Positions 18,261 to 31,374 of a stretch of DNA of 33,698 bases are shown one piece after another (positions within the stretch are counted from its first letter, which is position 1; each line of letters starts with the position of its first letter). Source of the DNA: Thiomargarita sp. (GTDB taxonomy: Bacteria; Pseudomonadota; Gammaproteobacteria; Beggiatoales; Beggiatoaceae); assembly GCA_020721045.1 (NCBI GenBank), contig DYNN01000022.1:1-33698 (forward strand), written 5' to 3'. Under the pieces are notes generated by a model, which had not been told where the DNA came from, made no database searches, and saw only the letters and a program-made list of their open reading frames with translations. Both the position numbers and the translations under genes were made by a program.

Positions 18261-19139
18261 CTAATCAATGCGATCATAACAACGAATACGATAGAGTAAT
18301 CGATGGTGGGCGGGATTATCGCTGTCGGTAAAACCGCTGCGATTATGCAACACATTGTTACAAATAACACCTTGTCCCGGCATTAATCGATGATGTAGCA
18401 CATGAGGCGAATTAACTGTACATAATTGATTCAAATAACTAATTGCTTCTTGCACTAACGTTGATTGTTTCCAAATGATATTACGCTTACGAGCAGTATA
18501 ACGCATTTGTAATGTCCCGTTAGGATTGATAAAAAATACAGGACCCGTTTGCGCTGGACGTAATTCGACACCTTCTTGCACATTTGCCGGAATGGTCATA
18601 ACGTCATTTTCCATCAATGCTGCAATATAATTAGGATTTTGGTCTCGTAATTTAATATACACAATTTCATGATCAAGCAACATGTTATCGCCGCCTTCCA
18701 ATGCTTGACGTTCACAATGTAGTAAAACCGAACGCACCTGTTGGTTGTCCGCGTTGTAATAACCATCAGTATGCCAATTAATCGCTTTATTAGTATATGG
18801 AATATAATCGTGAGCTTGCCCTTGATTTTCTACTTGTAAAGCGGTGATTCCATCATCTTCTTCGCAACACAAAGTACGATCGATCTGTGTTAAACCAAAC
18901 TGTTGGCAAAAAGCTAAAAGTGCATTTTTTTCAATGCTAACATTAGAACTCACTTGGTAAAAAGCCATATTAATTTTGCGACATGAAGATAAAATATGTT
19001 TTTTTTCCTGTATTGTCAATTGGTAAGGATTGTTAATGGGAACTAATAAATCTTTTATATCCACAGGATAAAGAGCTAATTTTTCTGTTTTCCAAGCGAG
19101 ATATGCTTGATTATCTTGTAATAAAAATGGATTTGTCAT
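18261..19139 (-). CDS. TauD/TfdA-family Fe(II)/2-oxoglutarate dioxygenase
   Basis: 292 residues. The iron-binding facial triad is visible as His123 and Asp125 in NWHTDGYY and the distal His265 in NNVLHNRSGF. An arginine near 280-284 in HHRLLYRIR is placed to bind 2-oxoglutarate. The double-stranded beta-helix length is normal for the family. Members hydroxylate taurine, other sulfonates or sulfate esters, gamma-butyrobetaine or amino acids; this one cannot be assigned to a substrate. Being next to the dsr operon suggests, weakly, an organosulfur substrate whose cleavage would give sulfite, but no ABC transporter or sulfonate genes are adjacent. It is transcribed divergently from dsrA across 586 bp. 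Confidence 0.84.
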   Translation of the reverse strand: MTNPFLLQDNQAYLAWKTEKLALYPVDIKDLLVPINNPYQLTIQEKKHILSSCRKINMAFYQVSSNVSIEKNALLAFCQQFGLTQIDRTLCCEEDDGITALQVENQGQAHDYIPYTNKAINWHTDGYYNADNQQVRSVLLHCERQALEGGDNMLLDHEIVYIKLRDQNPNYIAALMENDVMTIPANVQEGVELRPAQTGPVFFINPNGTLQMRYTARKRNIIWKQSTLVQEAISYLNQLCTVNSPHVLHHRLMPGQGVICNNVLHNRSGFTDSDNPAHHRLLYRIRCYDRID

Positions 19140-19725: not shown

Positions 19726-20970
19726 ATGGCTAAAGAAATGCACAAAACACCCATGCTTGATCAACTCGAAAGCGGTCCTTGGCCCAGTTTTGTTACGGGA
19801 CTAAAACGCCTTGCTCAAGATGAGGGTAAACCATATCAAAATATGATGATTGACTTACTCGGTCAATTGGAACATTCATACGAAACTAAAAAAGGTTATT
19901 GGAAGGGCGGTACAGTTGGGGTCATCGGTTATGGTGGCGGTGTTATTCCCCGTTTTTCTGAAGTGGGTCAAAAATTTCCAGATTCTAAAGAATTTCATAC
20001 ATTACGCATCCAACCGCCTGCTGGTATGCACTATACAACTGATATTATTCGTAAAATGTGTGATATTTGGGAAAGATATGGTTCAGGCTTAGTCGCTTTT
20101 CACGGACAAAGCGGTGATATCATGTTCCAAGGTGTGACTACTGATAATGTTCAACCTGCATTTGATGAATTTAATGAATTAGGCTTTGACCTCGGGGGCG
20201 CAGGTCCTGCAGTACGCACTGGAATGTCTTGTGTCGGTGCTGCACGTTGTGAGCAATCTTGTACTAATGAACAAAAAGTTCATCGCACTTTAGTAAACCG
20301 CTTTTTAGATGACATGCATCGTCCCGCCTTACCTTACAAATTCAAATTTAAAGTTTCTGGTTGTCCAAACGATTGTATGAACTCGATTGAACGTGCTGAT
20401 ATGGCAGTTATTGGTACGTGGCGCGATGACATGAAAGTCAATCAAACCGAAGTTAAAGCTTTTGTTGCTAGCAAATCCCGCAAATATGTCATTGATAACG
20501 TTGTTACCCGTTGTCCTACCAATGCACTTTCCCTTAATGATGATGATACACTCGCGGTTGATAATCGCAACTGTGTTCGCTGTATGCACTGTATCAATGT
20601 CATGACTAAAGCGTTGTCAGTCGGTGATGATAAAGGTGTGACCATTTTGATGGGTGGTAAACGTACTTTAAAAATTGGTGATTTAATGGGTACCGTTGTT
20701 GTACCATTTATGAAATTAGATACCGAAGAAGATTTTGAAGCACTGACCGAATTGGCAGAAAGAACCATTGAGTTTTTTGCCGAAAATGCACTAGAACACG
20801 AGCGTACTGGTGAAATGATTGAGCGAATTGGTTTGGTCAATTTCTTAGAAGGCATAGAGTTGGAAATTGATCCTAATATGATTGTTGAACCTCGTCAAAG
20901 TTCTTATGTCAGAATGGATACTTGGGACGAAGAAGTTGACAAGTGGAATGAGAGAAAAGCAGCAAGTTAA
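19726..20970 (+). CDS. dsrA: Reverse-type dissimilatory sulfite reductase alpha subunit
   Basis: 414 residues, against 417 in Allochromatium vinosum. DsrA with DsrB forms the cytoplasmic alpha2beta2 siroheme enzyme which, in sulfur oxidisers, converts DsrC/DsrL-delivered sulfane sulfur to sulfite. The siroheme-[4Fe-4S] ligand cysteines are present in CVGAARCEQSC and in GCPNDC. An inserted ferredoxin domain carries CPTNAL and CVRCMHCINV for a further [4Fe-4S] cluster. The start has AGGAGA eight bases upstream. It begins a thirteen-gene operon. I call it the oxidative type because dsrEFH and dsrL are in the same operon and dsrD is absent. Confidence 0.97.
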   Translation: MAKEMHKTPMLDQLESGPWPSFVTGLKRLAQDEGKPYQNMMIDLLGQLEHSYETKKGYWKGGTVGVIGYGGGVIPRFSEVGQKFPDSKEFHTLRIQPPAGMHYTTDIIRKMCDIWERYGSGLVAFHGQSGDIMFQGVTTDNVQPAFDEFNELGFDLGGAGPAVRTGMSCVGAARCEQSCTNEQKVHRTLVNRFLDDMHRPALPYKFKFKVSGCPNDCMNSIERADMAVIGTWRDDMKVNQTEVKAFVASKSRKYVIDNVVTRCPTNALSLNDDDTLAVDNRNCVRCMHCINVMTKALSVGDDKGVTILMGGKRTLKIGDLMGTVVVPFMKLDTEEDFEALTELAERTIEFFAENALEHERTGEMIERIGLVNFLEGIELEIDPNMIVEPRQSSYVRMDTWDEEVDKWNERKAAS

Positions 20971-21078: not shown

Positions 21079-22149
21079 ATGTCCGCACCCCGTATGCCAG
21101 TAGAGAGCGGAGTTCCAGATCCGTTCCCTTATATGCACCCAGTCATGCAAAAGAATTTTGGTGCTTGGAGTCATCATGAGCGTCCACGTCCTGGTGTTTT
21201 GTGTCACACTGCTAAAGGTGGCGATAAGCTTTGGACGGTACGCGCAGGTACCCAGCGTCAAATGGATTTATACACTGTTCGCAAATTGTGTGATATCGCT
21301 GATCAATTTGGTGAAGGTTTTGTCCGTTTTACCATTCGCAGCAATATTGAATTTTTATTAGCGGATGGTGGCAAAGTTGATCCATTAATCAAGAAATTAC
21401 AAGATGAAGGTTTTCCAGTCGGTGGCACCGGACCTTCTGTAACCATGATTGCACATACGCAAGGTTGGTTACACTGTGATATTCCCGGTACTGATGCCTC
21501 TGGTGTTGTGAAAGCATTAATGGATGAATTACACGAAGAATTCATTCGCGAAGATATGCCTAATCGGGTACATATCACCACCTCTTGCTGCCAAATCAAC
21601 TGTGGCGGTCAAGGTGATATTGCTATCAATATTCAACACACTAAACCACCCAAAATTAACCATGATTTAGTGGCTAATATCTGCGAAAGACCTACCGTAG
21701 TAGCACGTTGTCCAGTTGCAGCTATTCGTCCTGCATTAGTGAATGGTAAACCTTCGTTAGAAGTTGATGAGAAGAAGTGTATCTGTTGCGGTGCTTGCTA
21801 TCCACCTTGCCCACCTATGCAAATTAATGATCCTGTTCATTCTAAATTAGCGATTTGGGTGGGTGGTAATCATTCTAACGCACGTAGCAAACCAACTTTC
21901 CAAAAATTAGTGGCTGCTGGCTTACCTAACAATCCACCGCGTTGGACTGAAGTTGCTGCAGTGGTTAAGAAAATTTTGCATGTTTACAAAGAAGATGCTA
22001 AAGATTGGGAACGCTTATCCGATTGGGTTGCGCGGATTGGATGGTCTCGTTTCTTTGAATTAACTGAATTGCCCTTCACCAAATTCCATGTGGATAATTG
22101 GCGTGGTGCAAGACGCAGCTTAAACGCTTCGGCTCATATCCGGTTTTAA
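21079..22149 (+). CDS. dsrB: Reverse-type dissimilatory sulfite reductase beta subunit
   Basis: 356 residues. DsrB carries the catalytically active siroheme-[4Fe-4S] site. The ligand region SCCQINCGGQGD and the ferredoxin-domain motif KKCICCGACYPPCPPM are intact, and the paralogous relationship to DsrA is clear along the length. The ATG is preceded by CGGAGA. The 108-bp gap after dsrA has no gene. A strong hairpin (22156-22194) follows the gene, which could stabilise a dsrAB transcript. Confidence 0.97.
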   Translation: MSAPRMPVESGVPDPFPYMHPVMQKNFGAWSHHERPRPGVLCHTAKGGDKLWTVRAGTQRQMDLYTVRKLCDIADQFGEGFVRFTIRSNIEFLLADGGKVDPLIKKLQDEGFPVGGTGPSVTMIAHTQGWLHCDIPGTDASGVVKALMDELHEEFIREDMPNRVHITTSCCQINCGGQGDIAINIQHTKPPKINHDLVANICERPTVVARCPVAAIRPALVNGKPSLEVDEKKCICCGACYPPCPPMQINDPVHSKLAIWVGGNHSNARSKPTFQKLVAAGLPNNPPRWTEVAAVVKKILHVYKEDAKDWERLSDWVARIGWSRFFELTELPFTKFHVDNWRGARRSLNASAHIRF

Positions 22150-22155
22150 TTTGTA

Positions 22156-22194
22156 GTACGCTTATTTTTCTCTAAAATGAGAGAATAAGCGTAC
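22156..22194 (+). promoter_or_regulatory. Strong intra-operon hairpin after dsrB
   Basis: gtacgcttatt (22156-22166) pairs perfectly with aataagcgtac (22184-22194), an 11-bp stem with extra CTC/GAG pairing in the loop. It is followed by atggtttgg rather than a T-run, so a partial terminator or an RNA-processing/stability element that raises dsrAB relative to downstream genes is more likely than a full stop. Confidence 0.6.
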
Positions 22195-22228
22195 ATGGTT
22201 TGGCTATTAAAATACGAAGGAGACCACG

Positions 22229-22621
22229 GTGAAGTTTTCTATTATGGTCAATGAAGGACCTTATCAACATCAATCTTCTGATTCTGCTTACCAATTTACC
22301 AAAGCAGCATTAGAGAAAGGGCATGAGATTTTTCGCGTGTTTTTTTATCATGATGGCGTAAACAACGCGACTTGCTTGACGGTTCCTCCTCAAGATGATC
22401 GTCATGTTGTCAATCGTTGGTCTGAATTATCCAAAAAATATAATTTAGATTTAGTCGTTTGTATTGCTGCTGCTCAACGACGCGGTATTTTGGACGACAA
22501 TGAAGCTAAACGTCAGGGAAAAAATGCAAGTAATATTGCTGAAGGTTTTCGAATTTCTGGTTTGGGACAGTTAATTGAGGCAGGAATCCAAGCCGATCGT
22601 CTAGTTGTTTTTGGTGATTGA
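22229..22621 (+). CDS. dsrE: Sulfurtransferase subunit DsrE
   Basis: 130 residues with a GTG start behind AAGGAGA. DsrE is the catalytic subunit of the cytoplasmic DsrE2F2H2 sulfur-transfer complex (TusBCD-like) that hands persulfide sulfur to DsrC. The active-site cysteine is Cys78 in LVVCIAAAQRRGI, the same number as in A. vinosum. The N-terminal MVNEGPYQHQSSDSAY segment is typical of the DsrE fold. It is followed by dsrF after an 80-bp gap. Confidence 0.95.
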   Translation: MKFSIMVNEGPYQHQSSDSAYQFTKAALEKGHEIFRVFFYHDGVNNATCLTVPPQDDRHVVNRWSELSKKYNLDLVVCIAAAQRRGILDDNEAKRQGKNASNIAEGFRISGLGQLIEAGIQADRLVVFGD

Positions 22622-22701
22622 TCACGACAAGTCACATCCATTAACGATTGGGTGTGTAAATCAGAACAAATAAATAGACACGTAACTAACGCGGGGAATA
22701 T

Positions 22702-23103
22702 ATGGCGGAAGATATGATGGATGGCGAAGGTGGCGTAATCAAGAAATTTTTGTACGTAAATCGTAAGGCACCTTATGGCACTATTTACGCCCTAGAATCA
22801 TTAGAAGTAGTCCTTATTGGTGCTGCATTTGAGCAAGATGTCAGTTTGGTTTTCATTGATGACGGTGTTTATCAACTGAAAAAAGGTCAGCAGACAACAG
22901 TCGATTCTGGTATTGGCGTGAAAGATTTCTCTAAAACCTACCGTGCTTTGGAAGGTTATGATGTTGAAAAACTTTATGTTGATAAGAAATCGATGGAAAT
23001 GCGCGGTTTGAGCACAAGTGACTTAAATGTTGATGTGGAAGTATTAGATGACGCGCAAATGGCTGATTTGATGGCACAACAAGATATTATCTTAAGTTTT
23101 TAA
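22702..23103 (+). CDS. dsrF: DsrEFH complex subunit DsrF
   Basis: 133 residues, TusC-like. The fold opens with KKFLYVNRKAPYGTIYALE and has the LIGAAFEQDVSLVFIDDGVYQL strand-turn that is highly conserved in the family. There is no cysteine in the protein, in line with a structural rather than persulfide-carrying role. The ribosome-binding site is CGGGGA. It is followed by dsrH after 18 bp. Confidence 0.95.
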   Translation: MAEDMMDGEGGVIKKFLYVNRKAPYGTIYALESLEVVLIGAAFEQDVSLVFIDDGVYQLKKGQQTTVDSGIGVKDFSKTYRALEGYDVEKLYVDKKSMEMRGLSTSDLNVDVEVLDDAQMADLMAQQDIILSF

Positions 23104-23121
23104 GCGGGAGATCAAAGAACA

Positions 23122-23424
23122 ATGTTACATACAGTGAATAAATCGCCGTTTGAAAAAAACTCGTTAGAAAGTTGCTTGCGTTTATCCAAAGAAGGTTGTG
23201 CTGTTTTGTTATTTGAAGATGCGGTTTATGGTGCTTTAAAAGGCACACAGTTGGAAGCAACCGTTGTTGAAGCATTAAAAAGCAAAAAAATGTATGTGCT
23301 ATTGCCCGATATCGAAGCACGGGGTATGCGAGCAGAAGATGTAATTTCTGGGGTACAGACAGTTGATTATGCGGGTTTTGTTGATTTAGTGGCGGAGAAG
23401 GCTACCGTCCAAGCGTGGCTTTAA
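23122..23424 (+). CDS. dsrH: DsrEFH complex subunit DsrH
   Basis: 100 residues, TusB-like. The N-terminal HTVNKSPFEKNSLESCL includes Cys18, corresponding to the conserved DsrH cysteine (Cys20 in A. vinosum). The rest shows the LLFEDAVYGAL strand and VLLPDIEARGM segment of the family. A GGGAGA site precedes the ATG. It completes the DsrEFH hexamer genes and is followed by dsrC after 54 bp. Confidence 0.94.
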   Translation: MLHTVNKSPFEKNSLESCLRLSKEGCAVLLFEDAVYGALKGTQLEATVVEALKSKKMYVLLPDIEARGMRAEDVISGVQTVDYAGFVDLVAEKATVQAWL

Positions 23425-23478: not shown

Positions 23479-23814
23479 ATGGCAGTTGTTACAGCAAATG
23501 GTAAAGATGTTGAAGTGGATGAAGAAGGTTATTTGACCGATTTGAATACTTGGGATGAAGATATTGCTAAAGTGTTAGCTGACCAAGATAAATTAGAATT
23601 AACTGAAAGTCATTGGGAAGTTATTCACTTTTTGCGTGAATATTATAACGAATACCAAATTGCGCCAGCAGTGCGTGTATTGACCAAAGCGATTGGCAAA
23701 AAGTTAGGTCCAGAAAAAGGTAATAGTAAGTATTTGTACGAATTATTTCCTTATGGTCCTGCTAAGCAGGCTTGTCGTTTTGCAGGTCTTCCTAAACCAA
23801 CAGGTTGTATCTAA
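23479..23814 (+). CDS. dsrC: Sulfur-carrier protein DsrC
   Basis: 111 residues. DsrC is the soluble persulfide/trisulfide carrier that links DsrEFH, DsrAB, DsrL and DsrMK. The flexible C-terminal arm is intact: Cys99 and the penultimate Cys110, ten residues apart, in KQACRFAGLP...TGCI. The remainder (GYLTDLNTWDEDIA, LTESHWEVIHFLREYY) is the canonical winged-helix-like core. The site GAGGTG precedes the ATG. A second, cysteine-free member of the same family lies three genes downstream at 26311. Confidence 0.96.
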   Translation: MAVVTANGKDVEVDEEGYLTDLNTWDEDIAKVLADQDKLELTESHWEVIHFLREYYNEYQIAPAVRVLTKAIGKKLGPEKGNSKYLYELFPYGPAKQACRFAGLPKPTGCI

Positions 23815-23940
23815 AACTGTAGGGTGCAGTGATGCCTTTTTCCTGAGTCATTTTGGAAAAGGCGGAACTGCGCTCCTGCTCAATTGCTTGCTACGATTAA
23901 TGTCATCTATTTTGTTAGATGAATATGGATTGAAACAAAC
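23815..23940 (+). promoter_or_regulatory. dsrC-dsrM spacer with hairpin and REP-like start
   Basis: A stem of gcctttttcc (23834-23843) and ggaaaaggc (23855-23863), with outer gcagt/actgc pairing, forms a hairpin shortly after the dsrC stop. The preceding gtagggtgca (23819-23828) matches the start of the REP-like hairpin arm in the left-edge element (gtagggtgcat at 196-206). It may be a processing or attenuation site leaving dsrC more abundant than dsrM, which would fit the known high DsrC level in sulfur oxidisers. Confidence 0.45.
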
Positions 23941-24678
23941 ATGGACTTCATAAGTGTTGTTTACGCACTATTATTTTATTTAGCTTCAGTAATATTCGTT
24001 GTATTTGTGGCACGTAAAATTTATCAATATGCCACGGTGCCCGCACCTTTAAAAATACCAACAATGCCAGCACCTTTAACAACTTCAGGTGTTGCGTTGC
24101 GTCTCGCGCGTGAAGTGGTTTTTTTTGAAAGCTTATTTCGTTCAAATAAGTGGATTTGGTTGTTTGGTTGGATGTTTCATCTCGCTTTATTGGTCGTTTT
24201 ACTTCGTCATTTACGCTATTTTATTGATCCTGTTTGGATGTGGGTTGCATTGATCCAACCTTTTGGTAAATATGCCAGTTTCTTTATGTTGATAGGCTTA
24301 GCTGGTTTATTAGCGCGCCGTATCGTGGTAGAACGCATTCGCTATATCAGCAACCCTTCTGATTATTTGATGTTGTTGTTGTTGCTGTTGATTGGTATGA
24401 GTGGCACTATGCTTACTTTTGTATTGCATACTGATATTGTACAGCTAAAAGCTTTTACATTAGGTTTACTTTATTTTGATTGGCAGCCACTTCCTAAAGA
24501 CCCCGCTGTGTTAGTTCATTTGGGGGCAGTGATTGTGTTAATGATTATTTTTCCATTTAGTAAATTATTACATGCACCGGGCATCTTTTTTAGTCCGAGT
24601 CGCAATCAAGTCGATAATGCACGTGAAAAGCGGCATATTGCTGAATGGGCAACCAAACTTGAAACTCCAAATAACTGA
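23941..24678 (+). CDS. dsrM: DsrMKJOP complex cytochrome b subunit DsrM
   Basis: 245 residues. DsrM is a NarI-like membrane subunit that holds two b hemes and exchanges electrons with the quinone pool. About five hydrophobic segments are visible (for example FISVVYALLFYLASVIFVVFV at the N-terminus). Candidate heme-ligand histidines lie in MFHLALL, LLRHLRYF, VLHTDIV and LVHLGAV. The short N-terminal sequence before TM1 indicates the cytoplasm-out topology of the family. The ribosome-binding site is weak. It is followed by dsrK after 11 bp. Confidence 0.94.
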   Translation: MDFISVVYALLFYLASVIFVVFVARKIYQYATVPAPLKIPTMPAPLTTSGVALRLAREVVFFESLFRSNKWIWLFGWMFHLALLVVLLRHLRYFIDPVWMWVALIQPFGKYASFFMLIGLAGLLARRIVVERIRYISNPSDYLMLLLLLLIGMSGTMLTFVLHTDIVQLKAFTLGLLYFDWQPLPKDPAVLVHLGAVIVLMIIFPFSKLLHAPGIFFSPSRNQVDNAREKRHIAEWATKLETPNN

Positions 24679-24689
24679 GGAAAAGGATT

Positions 24690-26180
24690 ATGGCTGCTTT
24701 TGATGTTCCTCCATTTAGACCTTATCCCATTATTCCTGAGTTGAAACCTGATGCAATGAAAAAAGACGGGCCCTTTATTGCTAAGCCCGATCATCAAGAA
24801 GCATTAGGTTTTCCGGGAAAGTTGGTCGACAATTGGCAAGAAAAAGCTATTGAGAAAATGGGCGATTTGCTAAAAAGATTTCGTTCTTTTCAAGTGTATA
24901 TGGATGCATGCGTAAAATGTGGTGCCTGTACTGACAAATGTCACTACTTTATTGGTACGTCTGATCCCAAAAATATGCCTGTTGCTAGACAAGATTTGTT
25001 ACGTCAAGTTTATCGTCGTTACTTCACTTTTGCGGGTAAATATTTTCCTAAGTTGGTTGGCGCAAAAGACTTGACCAGAGAAATACTTGATGAGTGGTAT
25101 AACTATTATCATCAATGTTCGCAATGTCGTCGTTGCTCTGTTTTTTGTCCTTATGGTATTGATACTGCTGAAATTTCTATGGCAGCTCGTGAAATTATGG
25201 ATTCTATTGGACATGGACAAAAGTATTGTAACGAAATCATTGCAAAAGTTTATAAAATTGGTAACAACTTAGGACTGCCTGAGCCAGCTTTACGTGATAC
25301 TTTGGAAGGATTAGAAGAAGACATTTTAGATGCGACTGGAGTTGCGGTGCGGCTACCAATTGATGAAGAAGGGGTTGATGTATTGCTTGTTACGCCCTCA
25401 GCTGATTTTTTTGCTGAACCTCATGTTGATGGTTTAGTTGGTTATGCAAAGGTTTTTCATCAAGCTGGTATTTCTTGGACTATCAGTTCTTATGCATCTG
25501 AAGCAGCTAATTTTAGTATGTTTATTGGTAGTTACGAAAATATGCGCAAAATTGCCCTACGTATTCGTCAAGCAGCGATTGATCTAAAAGTTAAACGCAT
25601 TGTATTTGGTGAATGTGGACATGCATGGCGGGTTGCTTACAGTTTCTTAAACACATTAGCCGGTCCTTTCGATTTTCTTGATCCCAAGTATCCTGTACCG
25701 CAACATATTTGTGAATTAACTTATGATCTGATTCAGCGTGGCGCGCTTAAATTAGATAAAACTGCTAATGATCATATGAAATTGACTTTTCATGATTCTT
25801 GTAACGTGGCGCGTGCAACCCGAATGGGCAGTATGCCGGGTGGACAGTTTGTTATTCCGCGTGAAGTGATCAAAGCTGTTTGCAATCACTACTATGATAT
25901 GCCTAGCGACACGATTCACGATGGTACTTTTTGTTGTGGCGGTGGTGGCGGTCTATTAACCGATGATTTAATGGAAGTGCGGGTTAAAGGGGCTTTACCT
26001 CGTATGGAAGCTTTGAAACAAGTCACTGATGATCATGGAGTGACTCATATGGCTGCAATTTGTGCGATTTGTAAGAGCCAATTTACCAAAGTATTGCCTT
26101 ATTATGGATTTAGAATGGATCAAATTGTGAGTGTGCATCAATTGGTTAGTAATGCAATTGTGTTATCACCACCTGAGTAA
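24690..26180 (+). CDS. dsrK: DsrMKJOP complex Fe-S subunit DsrK (HdrD-like)
   Basis: 496 residues, cytoplasmic face. Two [4Fe-4S] ferredoxin motifs are complete: C74, C77, C80, C84 and C143, C146, C149, C153. The C-terminal part has the CCG-type, HdrD-like cysteine set (FGECGHA, HDSCNVAR, FCCGGGGG, ICAICKSQF) that binds the special [4Fe-4S] cluster reacting with the DsrC disulfide/trisulfide. The strong AGGAAAAGG site precedes the ATG. A 130-bp gap with a small GGTGCA/TGCACC hairpin (26196-26216) separates it from the DsrC-like gene. Confidence 0.95.
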   Translation: MAAFDVPPFRPYPIIPELKPDAMKKDGPFIAKPDHQEALGFPGKLVDNWQEKAIEKMGDLLKRFRSFQVYMDACVKCGACTDKCHYFIGTSDPKNMPVARQDLLRQVYRRYFTFAGKYFPKLVGAKDLTREILDEWYNYYHQCSQCRRCSVFCPYGIDTAEISMAAREIMDSIGHGQKYCNEIIAKVYKIGNNLGLPEPALRDTLEGLEEDILDATGVAVRLPIDEEGVDVLLVTPSADFFAEPHVDGLVGYAKVFHQAGISWTISSYASEAANFSMFIGSYENMRKIALRIRQAAIDLKVKRIVFGECGHAWRVAYSFLNTLAGPFDFLDPKYPVPQHICELTYDLIQRGALKLDKTANDHMKLTFHDSCNVARATRMGSMPGGQFVIPREVIKAVCNHYYDMPSDTIHDGTFCCGGGGGLLTDDLMEVRVKGALPRMEALKQVTDDHGVTHMAAICAICKSQFTKVLPYYGFRMDQIVSVHQLVSNAIVLSPPE

Positions 26181-26310: not shown

Positions 26311-26652
26311 ATGAATTATAAATTTGATGGAAATACAATAGAAGCAAATGACAATGGATTCCTAAATAATGTAGATGACTGGAGCGAACAATTAGCAGAG
26401 GTGATTGCTGCTGCTGAAGATGTGCAGTTAACCGAACGTCATTGGGATGTCATTAATTACTTACGCGATGAATATATCAATAATGCAGGACATCAACCTA
26501 ACATGCGTAAAATTGTCAAAGCCATGGGAGACGCGTGGGGTGATAAAAAACTAGAAGCTAAGGCATTGTATGATCTGTTTCCCCTTAATCCAGATAAACA
26601 AGCCAGTAAAATTGGGGGACTGCCTGATACCAAACGTAAGGGTGGTTACTAA
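26311..26652 (+). CDS. Cysteine-free DsrC/TusE family paralogue
   Basis: 113 residues, clearly of the DsrC family over its full length: ANDNGFLNNVDDWSEQLAEV, LTERHWDVINYLRDEY, and a C-terminal DLFPLNPDKQASKIGGLP that lines up with the arm of the true DsrC at 23479. Both redox cysteines are absent: Ser99 replaces Cys99, and the terminal cysteine is replaced by a KRKGGY tail. The protein has no cysteine at all, so it cannot carry persulfide. Homologues lacking both cysteines have been grouped as presumed regulatory proteins (RspA), but I know of no case placed between dsrK and dsrL. AAGAAGGA sits at good distance to the ATG at 26311; a competing ATG at 26306 makes only a two-codon reading. It probably binds DsrC partners as a non-reactive mimic (inference). 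Confidence 0.9.
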   Translation: MNYKFDGNTIEANDNGFLNNVDDWSEQLAEVIAAAEDVQLTERHWDVINYLRDEYINNAGHQPNMRKIVKAMGDAWGDKKLEAKALYDLFPLNPDKQASKIGGLPDTKRKGGY

Positions 26653-26727: not shown

Positions 26728-28674
26728 ATGTCCTCCCAAACGACTGCTTCAGAAAAAAAAGCATTGACTTTTCGCCGATTTAAAGAAGATGATACATCTT
26801 TTGATGCTTGGAAAGATCACATTTTTCAAGCCAGTTGGTCACATAAATGTCCGACCTATGTGCATCGTACCGCACCTTGTCAAGGCAGTTGCCCAGCGGG
26901 TGAGGATATTCGCGGTTGGTTAGGTGTGGTCAGAGGAATGGAAAAGCCACCACAAGATATGGAATGGCAAGAATATGCTTTCCGCCGTTCTACTAACGCG
27001 AATCCTTTTCCTTCAATTATGGGACGAGTTTGTCCAGCACCTTGTCAAACGGGTTGTAACCGTAATGCTGTTGAAGATTATGTAGGTATTAATGCAGTTG
27101 AACAGTTTATTGGTGATACAGCGTTAACCAAAGGATATAAATTAGTCCCACCAGGCGAATCCACTGGCAAAAAAGTGGCTATTATTGGTGGTGGTCCCGC
27201 CGGTTTATCTGCCGCTTATCAATTGCGCCGTTATGGACACGCGTGTACTGTATTTGATGATCATGCTGATTTAGGCGGTATGATGGTTTTTGGTATTCCT
27301 GGTTATCGGACACCACGCGATGTTGTCAAAGGCGAAATTCAACGTATTTTGGATATGGGTGTAGAAACTCGTATGAATACGCGCGTTGGTAAAGATATTT
27401 CTATTGCTGAATTAGAAAAAGAATTTGACGCTGTTTTATGGGCAATTGGCTGCCAATCAGGTCGTCCACTGCCTGTGCCCAATTCAGATGCACCTAATTG
27501 TATTTCTGGTGTTGCTTTCTTGAGTGATTTTAATCAAGGACGTATCGGTCATGTACCACAAAAAGTAGTCGTCGTTGGCGGTGGTGATACTTCGATTGAC
27601 GTTGCCTCTGTTGCTCGCCGTTTGGGTCATAGTGAAGGTGACGCACCAGAAATGGGTTATGTTGCACATGATGTTGCCGCTTTAGGTACCCGTGCTGGTG
27701 CTCAAGTCACCTTGACTTCGCTATTTCCAATTGAAAACATGACTGCAGCTCAACATGAAATACAAGATGCGTTGAGAGAAGGGGTTGATATTCAAGCCGG
27801 TGTAATGCCAACTGAAGTTGTGTTGGGTGCTGATGGTAAAGCAGTTGGTTTAAAAATGGCAAAATGTACCGTCGATAAACGTGGCGTGCCCACTAAGATT
27901 GAAGGTACAGACTACGTGATTGAAGCCGATGTGATTGTTTCTGCCATTGGACAATACGGCGATTTGACTGGTAATGGATTAGATGAACTGAATAATGGAC
28001 GTGGTTTTATTGATGCTGATCCTTTTTATCGCGTTAAAGGACGGGATAAACATTTTGTAGCGGGTGATATTATTCGTCCACATTTATTGACAACTGCTAT
28101 CGGTCACGGTTCCATCGTCGCTAATACCATTGATCGTTATTTGTCTGGCGTTGAATTGACCAAACGCCCTAAAGTGGATGTCCATCATTTCAATTTATTA
28201 GCCAAATTAAATGAAGCTAATTTAGCACCGGAAGCCTTTATTCCTGAAGAAAGAGGTGATTTACGCGGTACGTCTTTAGCAAACTACGCTGTTCACAATT
28301 ATGAAGATCGTTCTACTGTAGAAATTATTCCTTCTAAAGCGTTATTTTTAGGTCATTTTTCTCATACGCCCCGTTTATTACGTGATGAAGTACATATTTC
28401 CTCTGAAGAAGTTTTAGGCAACTTCCAAGAACGGATTAAATGTTTAACTGATGCGCAAGCAATTGCTGAAGCCAAACGTTGTATGAGTTGTGGTCTTTGT
28501 TTTGAATGTGACAATTGCGTAGTTTTCTGTCCACAAGAAGCTGTCAAGAAAACACCAAAGAAAGAAATGACAACGGGACGTTATGTCTACACTGATTATT
28601 CACGTTGTATCGGTTGTCATATTTGTGCAGATGTATGCCCAACGGGTTACATTAATATGGGAATGGGTGAATAA
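26728..28674 (+). CDS. dsrL: DsrL, NAD(P)H:acceptor oxidoreductase of the rDsr pathway
   Basis: 648 residues. DsrL is an iron-sulfur flavoprotein, like the glutamate synthase small subunit, that interacts with DsrAB and couples the reverse-Dsr reaction to NAD+. N-terminal cluster cysteines are C51, C55, C102, C106 and C110. The FAD dinucleotide-binding site is IIGGGPAGLSAA (152-163), and the NAD(P) site VVVGGGDTSIDVA lies near 283. The C-terminal extension carries two ferredoxin [4Fe-4S] motifs: C585, C588, C591 (with C601) and C627, C630, C633, C637. The AAGGAG site precedes the ATG. Its stop is directly followed by the dsrJ start with no gap. Confidence 0.95.
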   Translation: MSSQTTASEKKALTFRRFKEDDTSFDAWKDHIFQASWSHKCPTYVHRTAPCQGSCPAGEDIRGWLGVVRGMEKPPQDMEWQEYAFRRSTNANPFPSIMGRVCPAPCQTGCNRNAVEDYVGINAVEQFIGDTALTKGYKLVPPGESTGKKVAIIGGGPAGLSAAYQLRRYGHACTVFDDHADLGGMMVFGIPGYRTPRDVVKGEIQRILDMGVETRMNTRVGKDISIAELEKEFDAVLWAIGCQSGRPLPVPNSDAPNCISGVAFLSDFNQGRIGHVPQKVVVVGGGDTSIDVASVARRLGHSEGDAPEMGYVAHDVAALGTRAGAQVTLTSLFPIENMTAAQHEIQDALREGVDIQAGVMPTEVVLGADGKAVGLKMAKCTVDKRGVPTKIEGTDYVIEADVIVSAIGQYGDLTGNGLDELNNGRGFIDADPFYRVKGRDKHFVAGDIIRPHLLTTAIGHGSIVANTIDRYLSGVELTKRPKVDVHHFNLLAKLNEANLAPEAFIPEERGDLRGTSLANYAVHNYEDRSTVEIIPSKALFLGHFSHTPRLLRDEVHISSEEVLGNFQERIKCLTDAQAIAEAKRCMSCGLCFECDNCVVFCPQEAVKKTPKKEMTTGRYVYTDYSRCIGCHICADVCPTGYINMGMGE

Positions 28675-29151
28675 ATGTTAGTACGCCGTTTGTTTCGCAT
28701 CATAATGCAGTTGGGTGTTGGCTTGATATTCAGTCTCGCCGTGAATGCAGATAATGGTGAAACGGCGGCAGGACGTGTTCCCCTGCCCACGTTGCCAACT
28801 GCTAAAATGGATTTTTCAACAGAACAAAAGTGTGTGGCACCGACCGATATTATGCGCCGAATGCATGGAACTTTTTTGAAACATAAACGCAATGAAACTA
28901 TGCATCAAGGTATCCGTACCCCAGCGTATAGTTTGGTTGAGTGTATTAGTTGCCATGTAACACCTAAAGAAGATGGCAGCTATACCAAGATTCAAGAAGA
29001 CCCACAACATTTTTGTCGCTCTTGTCATGCATATGCTGCGGTACAACCTGACTGTTTTCAATGCCATGCAAGTACGCCTGAAAAAGAAGCAGTGTCTACT
29101 GATTCTGTACCAGCAAATGTCGAAGAAATGTCTATGAGTATGTCTAAATAA
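28675..29151 (+). CDS. dsrJ: DsrMKJOP complex triheme cytochrome c DsrJ
   Basis: 158 residues. An N-terminal uncleaved signal anchor (about 5-24) places it in the periplasm. Three CxxCH heme motifs are present: CISCH (90-94), CRSCH (114-118) and CFQCH (127-131). Cys53 in KCVAPTDIMRRMH is at the position of the unusual cysteine heme ligand described for A. vinosum DsrJ. The start abuts the dsrL stop (TAAATG), so translation is coupled. A 262-bp gap with a hairpin separates it from dsrO. Confidence 0.94.
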   Translation: MLVRRLFRIIMQLGVGLIFSLAVNADNGETAAGRVPLPTLPTAKMDFSTEQKCVAPTDIMRRMHGTFLKHKRNETMHQGIRTPAYSLVECISCHVTPKEDGSYTKIQEDPQHFCRSCHAYAAVQPDCFQCHASTPEKEAVSTDSVPANVEEMSMSMSK

Positions 29152-29413
29152 TGTGTAAATAAATTTCCCCCTGAACTGAGGGGGAACCAAATAGATGGGA
29201 CTGTGTTCAAGACTTTAGTTATCGTATGTGGGCTCCGGTGGCGTTTTTTTTAATGAAGTTGTATTAGCATATTACTATATACCAACCTAATAAACAGTTT
29301 CTACAGCTTGTTAGCCATACCCAACAATTTTTAAGAATAAAATTTGTCCAACCCATTAATTATTATATTTCAGTAACTTAGGAAAAAAGATCGTTTTGAA
29401 AGAGCGCCTAATT
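29152..29413 (+). promoter_or_regulatory. dsrJ-dsrO spacer with GC-rich hairpin
   Basis: ttccccct (29165-29172) and agggggaa (29179-29186) form an 8-bp stem with a 6-base loop 13 bp after dsrJ. No T-run follows on the plus strand, so an mRNA-stability or partial-termination role is more likely than a full stop. The rest of the gap has no gene. It is the widest spacing within the operon, so a second promoter for dsrOP is possible, though none is clear. Confidence 0.5.
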
Positions 29414-30151
29414 ATGAAAGAACAACATTCACCAAATCAAAGTCGCCGTGATTTTATTAAAACTACAGCAACTGTAATGGGTGTCACCACAATTGCCCCT
29501 GGTATCTTATTTTATAGCACCTCTCAAGCACGTTCAATTGATCAAGCGGTCACATCCGAAGTGAGATGGGGAATGCTAATCGATACGACTCGCTGTACGA
29601 AAGATTGCGATGATTGTGTTAACGCCTGTGGACAAGAACATGGTTTAGTGGGACATGATCGCCCACAAACAGATGCAAAATGGATACGTAAAGTCGACTT
29701 ACGTGACAAACAAACCGGTCGCGAATACCATTTACCCATGATGTGTCAACATTGCGAATCACCGCCTTGTGCTGATGTATGCCCTACTGGTGCTTCGTTT
29801 AAACGTGCTGATGGTATCGTCTTAGTTGATAAACATATTTGTATTGGTTGTCGTTATTGTATGATGGCATGTCCTTATAAAGCACGTTCTTTTGTACATG
29901 AAGAAGTCACAGAACAAAAGACACATACGCCACGTGGAAAGGGAACTGTAGAAGCCTGTACTTTATGTGTGCATCGCGTGGATCAGGGAAAACTGCCTGC
30001 TTGTGTAGAAGCCTGCCCGAGTCAAGCCATTTTATTTGGCGATATTAATGATCCTAATAGTGAAATTGCAAAAAAATTAAAGGAAATTCATAATATTGCT
30101 TTGCGAGCAGATTTAAAATTAAATCCTGGCGTGCGTTATCAAGGAATTTGA
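29414..30151 (+). CDS. dsrO: DsrMKJOP complex periplasmic Fe-S subunit DsrO
   Basis: 245 residues from the ATG at 29414; a TTG at 29396 with AGGA 11 bases upstream would add six residues and cannot be excluded. A Tat signal with SRRDFIK (10-16) and a hydrophobic stretch ends near SQA. The mature part is an NrfC/HybA-like ferredoxin with four cysteine clusters: CTKDCDDCVNAC, CQHCESPPCADVC, CIGCRYCMMAC and CTLCVHR...CVEAC. It passes electrons between DsrJ and DsrP on the outer face of the membrane. It is followed by dsrP with only 2 bp between. Confidence 0.94.
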   Translation: MKEQHSPNQSRRDFIKTTATVMGVTTIAPGILFYSTSQARSIDQAVTSEVRWGMLIDTTRCTKDCDDCVNACGQEHGLVGHDRPQTDAKWIRKVDLRDKQTGREYHLPMMCQHCESPPCADVCPTGASFKRADGIVLVDKHICIGCRYCMMACPYKARSFVHEEVTEQKTHTPRGKGTVEACTLCVHRVDQGKLPACVEACPSQAILFGDINDPNSEIAKKLKEIHNIALRADLKLNPGVRYQGI

Positions 30152-30153
30152 CG

Positions 30154-31374
30154 ATGAAAAAAATTGCTTACACTCAGTTAGAAGGTCGTAGCCTTGGCTT
30201 TTACAGCCTAATCGCTATTTTAGGCGTTATCATATTAGCAGGCTTGGGTGCCACTTATTACATGGAACACCATGGACATTATGTAACTGGCATGACCAAT
30301 CAAGTTGTGTGGGGAATGCCACATGTTTTTGCTATCTTATTAATTTTAGCTGCATCTGGTGTATTAAATATTGCCTCAGTAGGCACGGTTTTTGGAAAAT
30401 CTCTATACAAGCCATTAGGTCGTTTATCTGGATTGATGGCAATTACTTTATTAATCGGTGGATTATGCGTTCTAGTGCTTGATTTAGGACACCCTGATCG
30501 CTTGATTGTTGCCATGACTTCTTACAATTTTAAATCTATTTTCGCGTGGAACATCTTCTTATATACCGGTTTTATGGTTATTGTCGGTATTTATTTATGG
30601 TGGATGATGGAGCGTTCAATGCACCGTTACTATCCTAAAGCAGGTTTAGTCGCATTCATTTGGCGTTTGATTCTAACCACTGGTACAGGTTCTATTTTTG
30701 GTTTTTTAGTGGCGCGCGAAGCTTATGATGCAGCTATTTTAGCCCCTTTATTTATTGCAATGTCTCTATCGTTAGGACTAGCCTTCTTTCTCATCACACT
30801 GATTGCAACTTATCATTGGGCTAAAAAACAACTGGGTAACGCGGTTTTATTTAGATTAAAGAACTTACTAGGCGTATTTGTTGCTGTTGTTTTATACTTC
30901 GTGGCTGCCTATCACTTAACTAACTTATACATTACCGAAAACCATGATGTAGAACGTTTTATTTTAATTGATGGCGGCGTTTACACCTTATTATTCTGGT
31001 TAGGACAAATCGCTTTAGGCAGTATACTACCTCTTATCTTGTTATATTCGCCCATTGGTAACACAAAAATGGGAATTGTGACCGCTTCTTTGCTTGTGTT
31101 GTTAGGCGGAATTGCCCAACTTTACGTTATTATCATTGGTGGACAAGCTTATCCTTTAGAAATTTTCCCCGGTATGGAAGTGGTGTCTTCCGGTTTCTTT
31201 GACTTATCATTGACAGAATATCATCGTTATGTACCAACCCTGTGGGAAATCATGTTAGGAGTTGGCGGTGTTGCGTTTAGTTTATTGGCAACAATATTTG
31301 CATTACGAGTTTTGCAATTCTTGCCAGTTAGTTTAGCAGATGCCGATATTGATCCACATACTAAAAAAGCTTAA
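30154..31374 (+). CDS. dsrP: DsrMKJOP complex membrane subunit DsrP (NrfD family)
   Basis: 407 residues including the start, from the ATG at 30154 with AAGGAA seven bases ahead. A TTG two codons earlier overlaps the dsrO stop and is less likely. About ten hydrophobic helices are seen, as in the NrfD/PsrC quinone-interacting family. It would exchange electrons with the quinone pool and pass them to DsrO. It is the last gene of the operon: a hairpin follows and no dsrN, dsrR or dsrS is found downstream. Confidence 0.94.
   Translation: MKKIAYTQLEGRSLGFYSLIAILGVIILAGLGATYYMEHHGHYVTGMTNQVVWGMPHVFAILLILAASGVLNIASVGTVFGKSLYKPLGRLSGLMAITLLIGGLCVLVLDLGHPDRLIVAMTSYNFKSIFAWNIFLYTGFMVIVGIYLWWMMERSMHRYYPKAGLVAFIWRLILTTGTGSIFGFLVAREAYDAAILAPLFIAMSLSLGLAFFLITLIATYHWAKKQLGNAVLFRLKNLLGVFVAVVLYFVAAYHLTNLYITENHDVERFILIDGGVYTLLFWLGQIALGSILPLILLYSPIGNTKMGIVTASLLVLLGGIAQLYVIIIGGQAYPLEIFPGMEVVSSGFFDLSLTEYHRYVPTLWEIMLGVGGVAFSLLATIFALRVLQFLPVSLADADIDPHTKKA

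Follow-up and report, generated by a model that had tools for sequence, protein, structure and literature searches.

DsrC is central to dissimilatory sulfur oxidation. A functional DsrC carries two cysteines in its C-terminal arm, at position 99 and at the penultimate position, and a functional TusE, a small partner-binding protein of the same family, carries the penultimate one (retained, for example, in E. coli TusE). A cysteine-independent group of the DsrC superfamily was reportedly named RspA ("regulatory sulfur-related protein") in a 2014 review by Venceslau et al., which is said to have suggested that it acts in regulation, a notion that the name reflects. To our knowledge, this group has not been studied, and in the literature searched, no paper was found in which "RspA," "DsrC," and "cysteine" occurred together. 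TusE acts with MnmA in tRNA modification (PMC3397948).

Here, we analyzed a 33,698-nucleotide stretch of Thiomargarita sp. DNA, referred to as the window in its whole length, which contains a dsr operon with an additional DsrC-family gene, labeled C2. The gene order in the window is dsrABEFHCMK-X-LJOP, with C2 in the place of X. The features considered below are as follows.

18261-19139, minus strand: gene for a TauD-like 2OG-Fe(II) dioxygenase, divergent from dsrA, with an HTD motif at 123-125 (PF02668, 79.8 bits)
19726-20970, plus strand: dsrA (TIGR02064, 585.6 bits)
21079-22149, plus strand: dsrB (PF01077/PF03460)
22229-23424, plus strand: dsrE, dsrF, and dsrH (named by order and similarity to other dsr loci)
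23479-23814, plus strand: true dsrC with Cys99 and Cys110 kept (profile matches, sequence)
23941-24678, plus strand: dsrM (PF02665, order)
24690-26180, plus strand: dsrK, directly upstream of C2 (NF045796, 614 bits)
26311-26652, plus strand: C2, a cysteine-less, RspA-like DsrC paralogue of 113 amino acids (translation, Pfam/NCBIfam, tree, model)
26635-26649, plus strand: codons for the C-terminal RKGGY of C2 (residues 109-113), Gly112 being aligned with the catalytic Cys110 of DsrC (alignment)
26728-28674, plus strand: dsrL, directly downstream of C2, named by gene order and family (NF009410 subfamily, 719 bits; DsrL-type NAD(P)-binding protein)
28675-31374, plus strand: dsrJ (named by order; no Pfam match), dsrO, and dsrP (order, Pfam)
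Contig C185, L171:5704-6390, minus strand: Cas6-like gene of the same genome (PF09559, 199.7 bits)

Translation of 26311-26652 yielded a protein of 113 amino acids without a single cysteine, and a ribosome-binding-like AGAAGGA was present 5' of its ATG. The product belongs to the DsrC/TusE/DsvC family, with 118.1 bits against PF04358 (cutoff, 24.9) and 102.6 bits against TIGR03342 (cutoff, 53.5). Its AlphaFold model had the DsrC fold (pLDDT 89.2; the last four residues were of low confidence), and the best PDB match was Allochromatium vinosum DsrC (1yx3; E value, 1.7e-8; TM score, 0.85). An earlier note on this DNA had described a second DsrC-family member devoid of cysteine, with Ser99, a KRKGGY tail, and an intact DsrC core, next to a true DsrC at 23479-23814 that keeps Cys99 and Cys110; the translations, profile matches, and model agreed with this description in each respect, the true DsrC having two cysteines. 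With Ser99 and Gly112, C2 lacks both cysteines of a functional DsrC as well as the one of a functional TusE, but retains the core and the arm and is tied to the oxidative dsr system, so that the term "redox-dead" used in the earlier note was apt. Compared to DsrC of A. vinosum (1yx3) and D. vulgaris (2v4j, chain C), the fold and most arm residues of C2 are alike, whereas the two arm cysteines are missing, the arm is two residues longer, and a Tyr forms its end. A third DsrC-family member of the source genome, located on contig C184, has a TusE-type end and one cysteine.

C2 matches what we take to be the definition of RspA, namely, a DsrC-family protein of sulfur oxidizers that lacks the conserved cysteines, and the gene probably is a member of this already named group. 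However, several other DsrC relatives without the penultimate Cys are present in the same genomes, so RspA may differ from the C2 clade. Such relatives, separate from C2, were seen at L091, L094, L127, and other loci in the order of the window; their ends are different (e.g., RRTKGEH or AGMRRP...WSTG).

To compare the arms, 65 C2, 48 DsrC, and 16 TusE-type sequences were aligned. C2 and DsrC have K96, Q97, G103, L104, P105, and the Gly that precedes the tip in common. In contrast, the catalytic penultimate cysteine (Cys110) was replaced by Gly112 in all 65 C2 rows, the position of Cys99 was most often occupied by Gly (58%; Ser in the window), and C2 ended with RKGGY instead of the TGC(V/I) of DsrC. 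RKGGY was invariant in 40 of 40 rows that had been selected by RKGGY; since C2 was first recognized by this end, its fixation in the alignment is by construction, and rows found by profile served as a check. All 42 distinct profile-found rows with at least 144 bits ended with RKGGY and had no Cys within the last 18 residues; three of their genomes (G000, G020, and G035) were already in the alignment, and others may share species with named loci. Four weaker profile-found rows had the RKGGY end together with one Cys at arm position 104, a noncatalytic position. Moreover, dsrA loci of three further genomes (G626, G653, and G677) contained a C2-like gene ending with GKGGY that adjoined a Cas6-like gene, and the G677 protein had a Cys at the place of Cys99. 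Owing to the rows with Cys104 and the Cys99 of G677, complete absence of cysteine applies to most, not all, C2 members examined.

In a tree of 99 family members, a branch with an SH-aLRT value of 99 separated the 39 C2 rows from DsrC and TusE; this was a quick tree of 118 columns in which neither DsrC nor TusE formed a single group. The median dN/dS of C2 was 0.084 (range, 0.008 to 0.225; 65 nonindependent pairs), indicative of purifying selection. With each species represented by a single genome, a search returned 40 related loci, of which 36 ended with RKGGY; these came from Gammaproteobacteria (SUP05-like bacteria, Thiothrix, Thiomargarita, Halochromatium, Lamprobacter, and others) and from Rhodobacteraceae or other Alphaproteobacteria, and the remaining four (Chloroflexi and Mobiluncus) had other ends. 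RKGGY loci numbered 70 once 42 genomes of the order of the window were added. At the Chloroflexi and Mobiluncus loci (L069 to L072), a different DsrC-type protein adjoins a DsrE2-like protein (family checked for L069). Two phage records, one of which carries a TusE annotation, also matched C2 with identities of 42% and 35%; judged by these records, a phage origin of C2 seems unlikely.

The loss of the catalytic residues is what a decaying dsrC copy or an assembly error would display, and the earlier note had named a recent pseudogene within a cysteine-bearing DsrC clade and a sequencing error concealing a cysteine as outcomes that would speak against its proposal. Neither was found. C2 occupied a clade of its own, and relatives carried the same kind of residues at the positions in question, which makes such an error very unlikely. 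Together with the spread over several proteobacterial groups, the separate clade, the low dN/dS, and the uniform C-terminal end ruled out both outcomes and reduce the chance of decay or misassembly to practically nil. C2 is not a broken gene: it has long been preserved alongside the enzymes of sulfur oxidation in many bacteria and appears to be a real, dedicated part of that pathway.

Co-occurrence was assessed in a class sample of 369 gammaproteobacterial genomes as raw counts that ignore kinship. The C2 matches listed had about 114 bits or more, with up to 12 candidates scored per genome, so that weaker C2-like genes may be missed in these counts. Among the matches listed, C2 was present in 110, dsrA in 117, a Cas6-like gene in 118, and all three in 99 genomes. 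C2 and dsrA were both found in 103 genomes, C2 only in 7, dsrA only in 14, and neither in 245; the corresponding numbers among the matches listed were 106, 4, 12, and 247 for C2 and the Cas6-like gene and 110, 8, 7, and 244 for the Cas6-like gene and dsrA. The 110 C2 genomes among the matches listed comprised 100 with at least 136 bits and 10 with 118 to 125 bits reaching the profile end; the ends of 4 of these 10 weaker matches were read, and all were RKGGY, the arm in each case having a single Cys, at position 104. When the seven genomes that had C2 and lacked dsrA were each inspected (G337 among them), two showed a piece of dsrA at a contig end. Of the 14 dsrA genomes without C2, 11 carried the Cas6-like gene (among the matches listed), and no C2 was seen in the stretches read in each of the 14 around the Cas6-like gene or dsrA, some of which stop at a contig end.

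Among Alphaproteobacteria, 11 of 12 genomes with C2 also had dsrA (one as contig-end fragments only), and none of the 12 had a Cas6-like gene. In a phylum sample of 359 genomes, 52 of them with dsrA, a strong C2 match was obtained in five, including that of the window, all with dsrA. Three more dsrA genomes, first counted as lacking C2, were those with the GKGGY form (G626, G653, and G677). In nine of the other 44, whose dsrA is of a lower-scoring kind, neither C2 nor a Cas6-like gene was seen at 11 dsr loci that were read, and the same was true of the dsr locus of a tenth (G697).

Within the order of the window (42 genomes), C2 was found in 34, one copy being cut by a contig end, the Cas6-like gene in 34, and a TusE-type gene, labeled by its end, in 17. 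Three near-complete genomes from two genera without dsrA (G005, G006, and G022) had neither C2 nor the Cas6-like gene but retained dsrC with dsrEFH, a pattern that weakly suggests a dependence of C2 on DsrAB or its expression rather than on DsrEFH or DsrC. One genome (G014, 92% complete) had C2, and no dsrA was found in it. Conversely, dsrA was present and no C2 was found in G033 and G034 (both 99% complete); given these two and the 14 without C2 among the 117 class-sample genomes that have dsrA (among the matches listed), C2 is dispensable in some genomes.

The earlier note had placed the paralogue between dsrK and dsrL. This is correct for the window, but the position is not typical: in 67 of 72 class-sample genomes in which C2 and dsrA share a contig (among the matches listed), C2 lay within 8 kb of dsrA and was divergent from it. 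Because the gene is thus mostly located outside the operon, the suggestion that C2 acts as a structural spacer within it found no support. According to other suggestions of the earlier note, C2 may compete with DsrC for DsrK, DsrL, or DsrAB or may be a regulator. In 88 of the 106 genomes with both (among the matches listed), a Cas6-like gene preceded C2 by at most 1 kb in the same orientation, and a TauD-like gene lay between dsrA and the Cas6-like gene in 31 of 41 fetched loci in which the two were at most 8 kb apart. These two neighbors, which accompany C2 in most of the Gammaproteobacteria examined, had escaped the earlier note. In the window, only the TauD-like gene of this usual cluster is still in its place, divergent from dsrA, the Cas6-like gene of the genome being on another contig, and dsrK-X-dsrL therefore looks like a relocation. 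Among the fetched C2 loci of the order, C2 and the Cas6-like gene were side by side only in G003 and G004 and about 3 kb apart in G014. C2 was found without a Cas6-like gene in G007, G009, G011, and G029 (63 to 90% complete), and the Cas6-like gene without C2 in G016, G024, G033, and G034. A link between C2 and dsrL exists in a second genome, since G020, of the same family, has a C2-dsrL-dsrJ run on a contig other than that of its dsrA. The most parsimonious interpretation is that the TauD/Cas6-like/C2 cluster broke up in this order and that, in the lineage of the window, C2 was relocated to the operon.

All members of the Cas6-like family that were scanned scored as Cas6 in Pfam, NCBIfam, and PADLOC, and three relatives exceeded the TIGR02807 cutoff. 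The model had the Cas6 fold, with the Cas6 of a type I-B CAST as the best PDB match (8fcj_B; E value, 5.5e-16). His34, Arg82, Arg88, and Lys162 were kept in 39 of 39 aligned rows, and in the G-rich loop two glycines were present in all 39 rows and two others in 36 and 38. From its place in the first helix, we infer that His34 would be catalytic. Family and fold are thus those of Cas6/Cmx6 (TIGR02807, PF09559), but this protein is encoded beside dsr genes, and a simple scan, looking for three identical copies of an 18-mer at intervals of 45 to 95 bases, detected no CRISPR-like array in 97 loci holding the Cas6-like gene (816 kb, some overlapping, many about 3 kb long). On contig C185, a gene for a membrane protein, resembling a TauE/SafE-type permease by sequence, is located near the Cas6-like gene on the same strand (L171:6938-7726). 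C2 and the Cas6-like gene each seem able to work without the other, as C2 occurs without the Cas6-like gene in Alphaproteobacteria and the Cas6-like gene occurs in some Gammaproteobacteria in which no C2 was found. The surprising part is the link to the Cas6-like gene, which is absent in Alphaproteobacteria.

Several features of the dsr operon itself were also recorded. The dsrC-dsrM spacer (window positions 23815 to 23940) is predicted to form a very stable hairpin (-44.2 kcal/mol). Of 43 homologous spacers, 37 were folded; the z score was below -2 in 33 of these, including 23 in which it was below -3 (some loci are near-copies); five of the six unfolded ones were only 27 to 32 bases long, too short for a hairpin of that size. 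The hairpin is possibly a stabilizer that raises the level of dsrC mRNA. Cleavage by the Cas6-like protein at this site is unsupported, because G005 and G006 have the hairpin but no Cas6-like gene. Further hairpins were predicted in the dsrB-dsrE spacer (22150 to 22228; 16 predicted pairs) and in the dsrJ-dsrO spacer (29152 to 29395). An Rfam scan of the window gave no match at the gathering score. When five stretches from four relatives were scanned, group I introns (RF00028) above this score were detected in two of these relatives, interrupting dsrA near residue 193 at L295:1395-1658 (G038) and L296:746-1385 (G033); none reached the gathering score in G026 and G034. In several other genomes of the order, dsrA is split at the same place.

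As our preferred reading, with a probability of roughly 45%, we propose that C2 is a twin of DsrC that does not carry sulfur and has an accessory or regulatory function in the oxidative (reverse) DsrAB pathway. Its fixed arm end suggests a fit to a specific pocket, for which the sites that bind DsrC are the obvious candidates. The flexible arm would still enter a docking site of the DsrC type, most likely in DsrAB or a DsrAB-bound protein, where Gly in place of Cys and the Tyr carboxylate at the tip may tune or block the site or help assembly. C2 would thereby act without carrying sulfur or electrons. The fold of C2 is also consistent with nucleic-acid binding, and gene content cannot separate a protein-partner role from a regulatory role. 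Alternatively, C2 might be a nucleic-acid-binding regulator: through DNA or RNA bound by its winged-helix-like core, it would control the transcription of dsr genes or a later step of their expression, together with the Cas6-like RNA-binding partner and perhaps the TauD-like oxygenase as a sensor, a proposal we regard as somewhat unlikely. The usual divergence of C2 from dsrA argues for it, as does the gene of an RNA-binding family just upstream on the same strand, the model of which is nearest to a type I-B CAST Cas6 and which keeps its four conserved residues and G-rich loop. A match to the LexA DNA-binding domain points the same way, with E values up to 0.1 in 12 of 40 members; at 19.5 bits, however, it lies under the cutoff of 23.7, the phage protein family PF23986 matched equally weakly in 20 of 40 members, and a LexA structure appeared among the fold matches only at an E value of 0.85. 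In addition, DNA binding does not obviously need a fixed C-terminal arm. The Cas6-like gene, for its part, is missing from all 12 alphaproteobacterial C2 genomes and present in most class-sample dsrA genomes without C2 (11 of 14, among the matches listed), and strong dsrC-dsrM hairpins (z < -3 in 23 of 37 folded) extend to G005 and G006, which lack it.

Two further alternatives were considered. Membership of TusE in the same family and the neighbor from an RNA-binding family would fit C2 as a TusE-like adaptor in RNA modification or thiolation, tied to RNA via the Cas6-like protein, and TusE works with MnmA in tRNA modification (PMC3397948). This is improbable, however, as C2 has no sulfur-carrying cysteine, a separate TusE-type gene exists in 17 of 42 genomes of the order, and the association found is with dsrA. 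The thiocarboxylates of ThiS, MoaD, and QbsE are precedents for a different kind of carrier, in which Tyr113 of C2 would be trimmed and the Gly-Gly end would take up the sulfur. The fixed -GGY end is located exactly at the place of the DsrC cysteine, but C2 has the fold of DsrC and not that of the beta-grasp carriers, and we consider this reading very improbable. Beyond the accessory or regulatory role preferred here, C2, the stand-alone Cas6-like protein, and the TauD-like oxygenase could be imagined as a unit that controls the oxidative Dsr pathway: an RNA endonuclease of the CRISPR type would have been co-opted to control energy metabolism (e.g., by acting on dsr mRNA), with the DsrC twin linking it to the state of the Dsr enzymes. 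We put this forward as a speculative and doubtful extension.

No description of a C2/Cas6-like pair, or of a coupling of C2 to Cas6-like and TauD-like genes, was found in the literature searched, which did not include most subscription papers. Counts of PF04358 matches overcount functional DsrC, and annotation of the Cas6-like neighbor as a CRISPR protein may mislead. In the sampled Gammaproteobacteria, C2 is about as frequent as dsrA (110 versus 117 of 369 genomes, among the matches listed) and usually located beside a Cas6-like gene, which suggests an unstudied layer of the sulfur-oxidation pathway.
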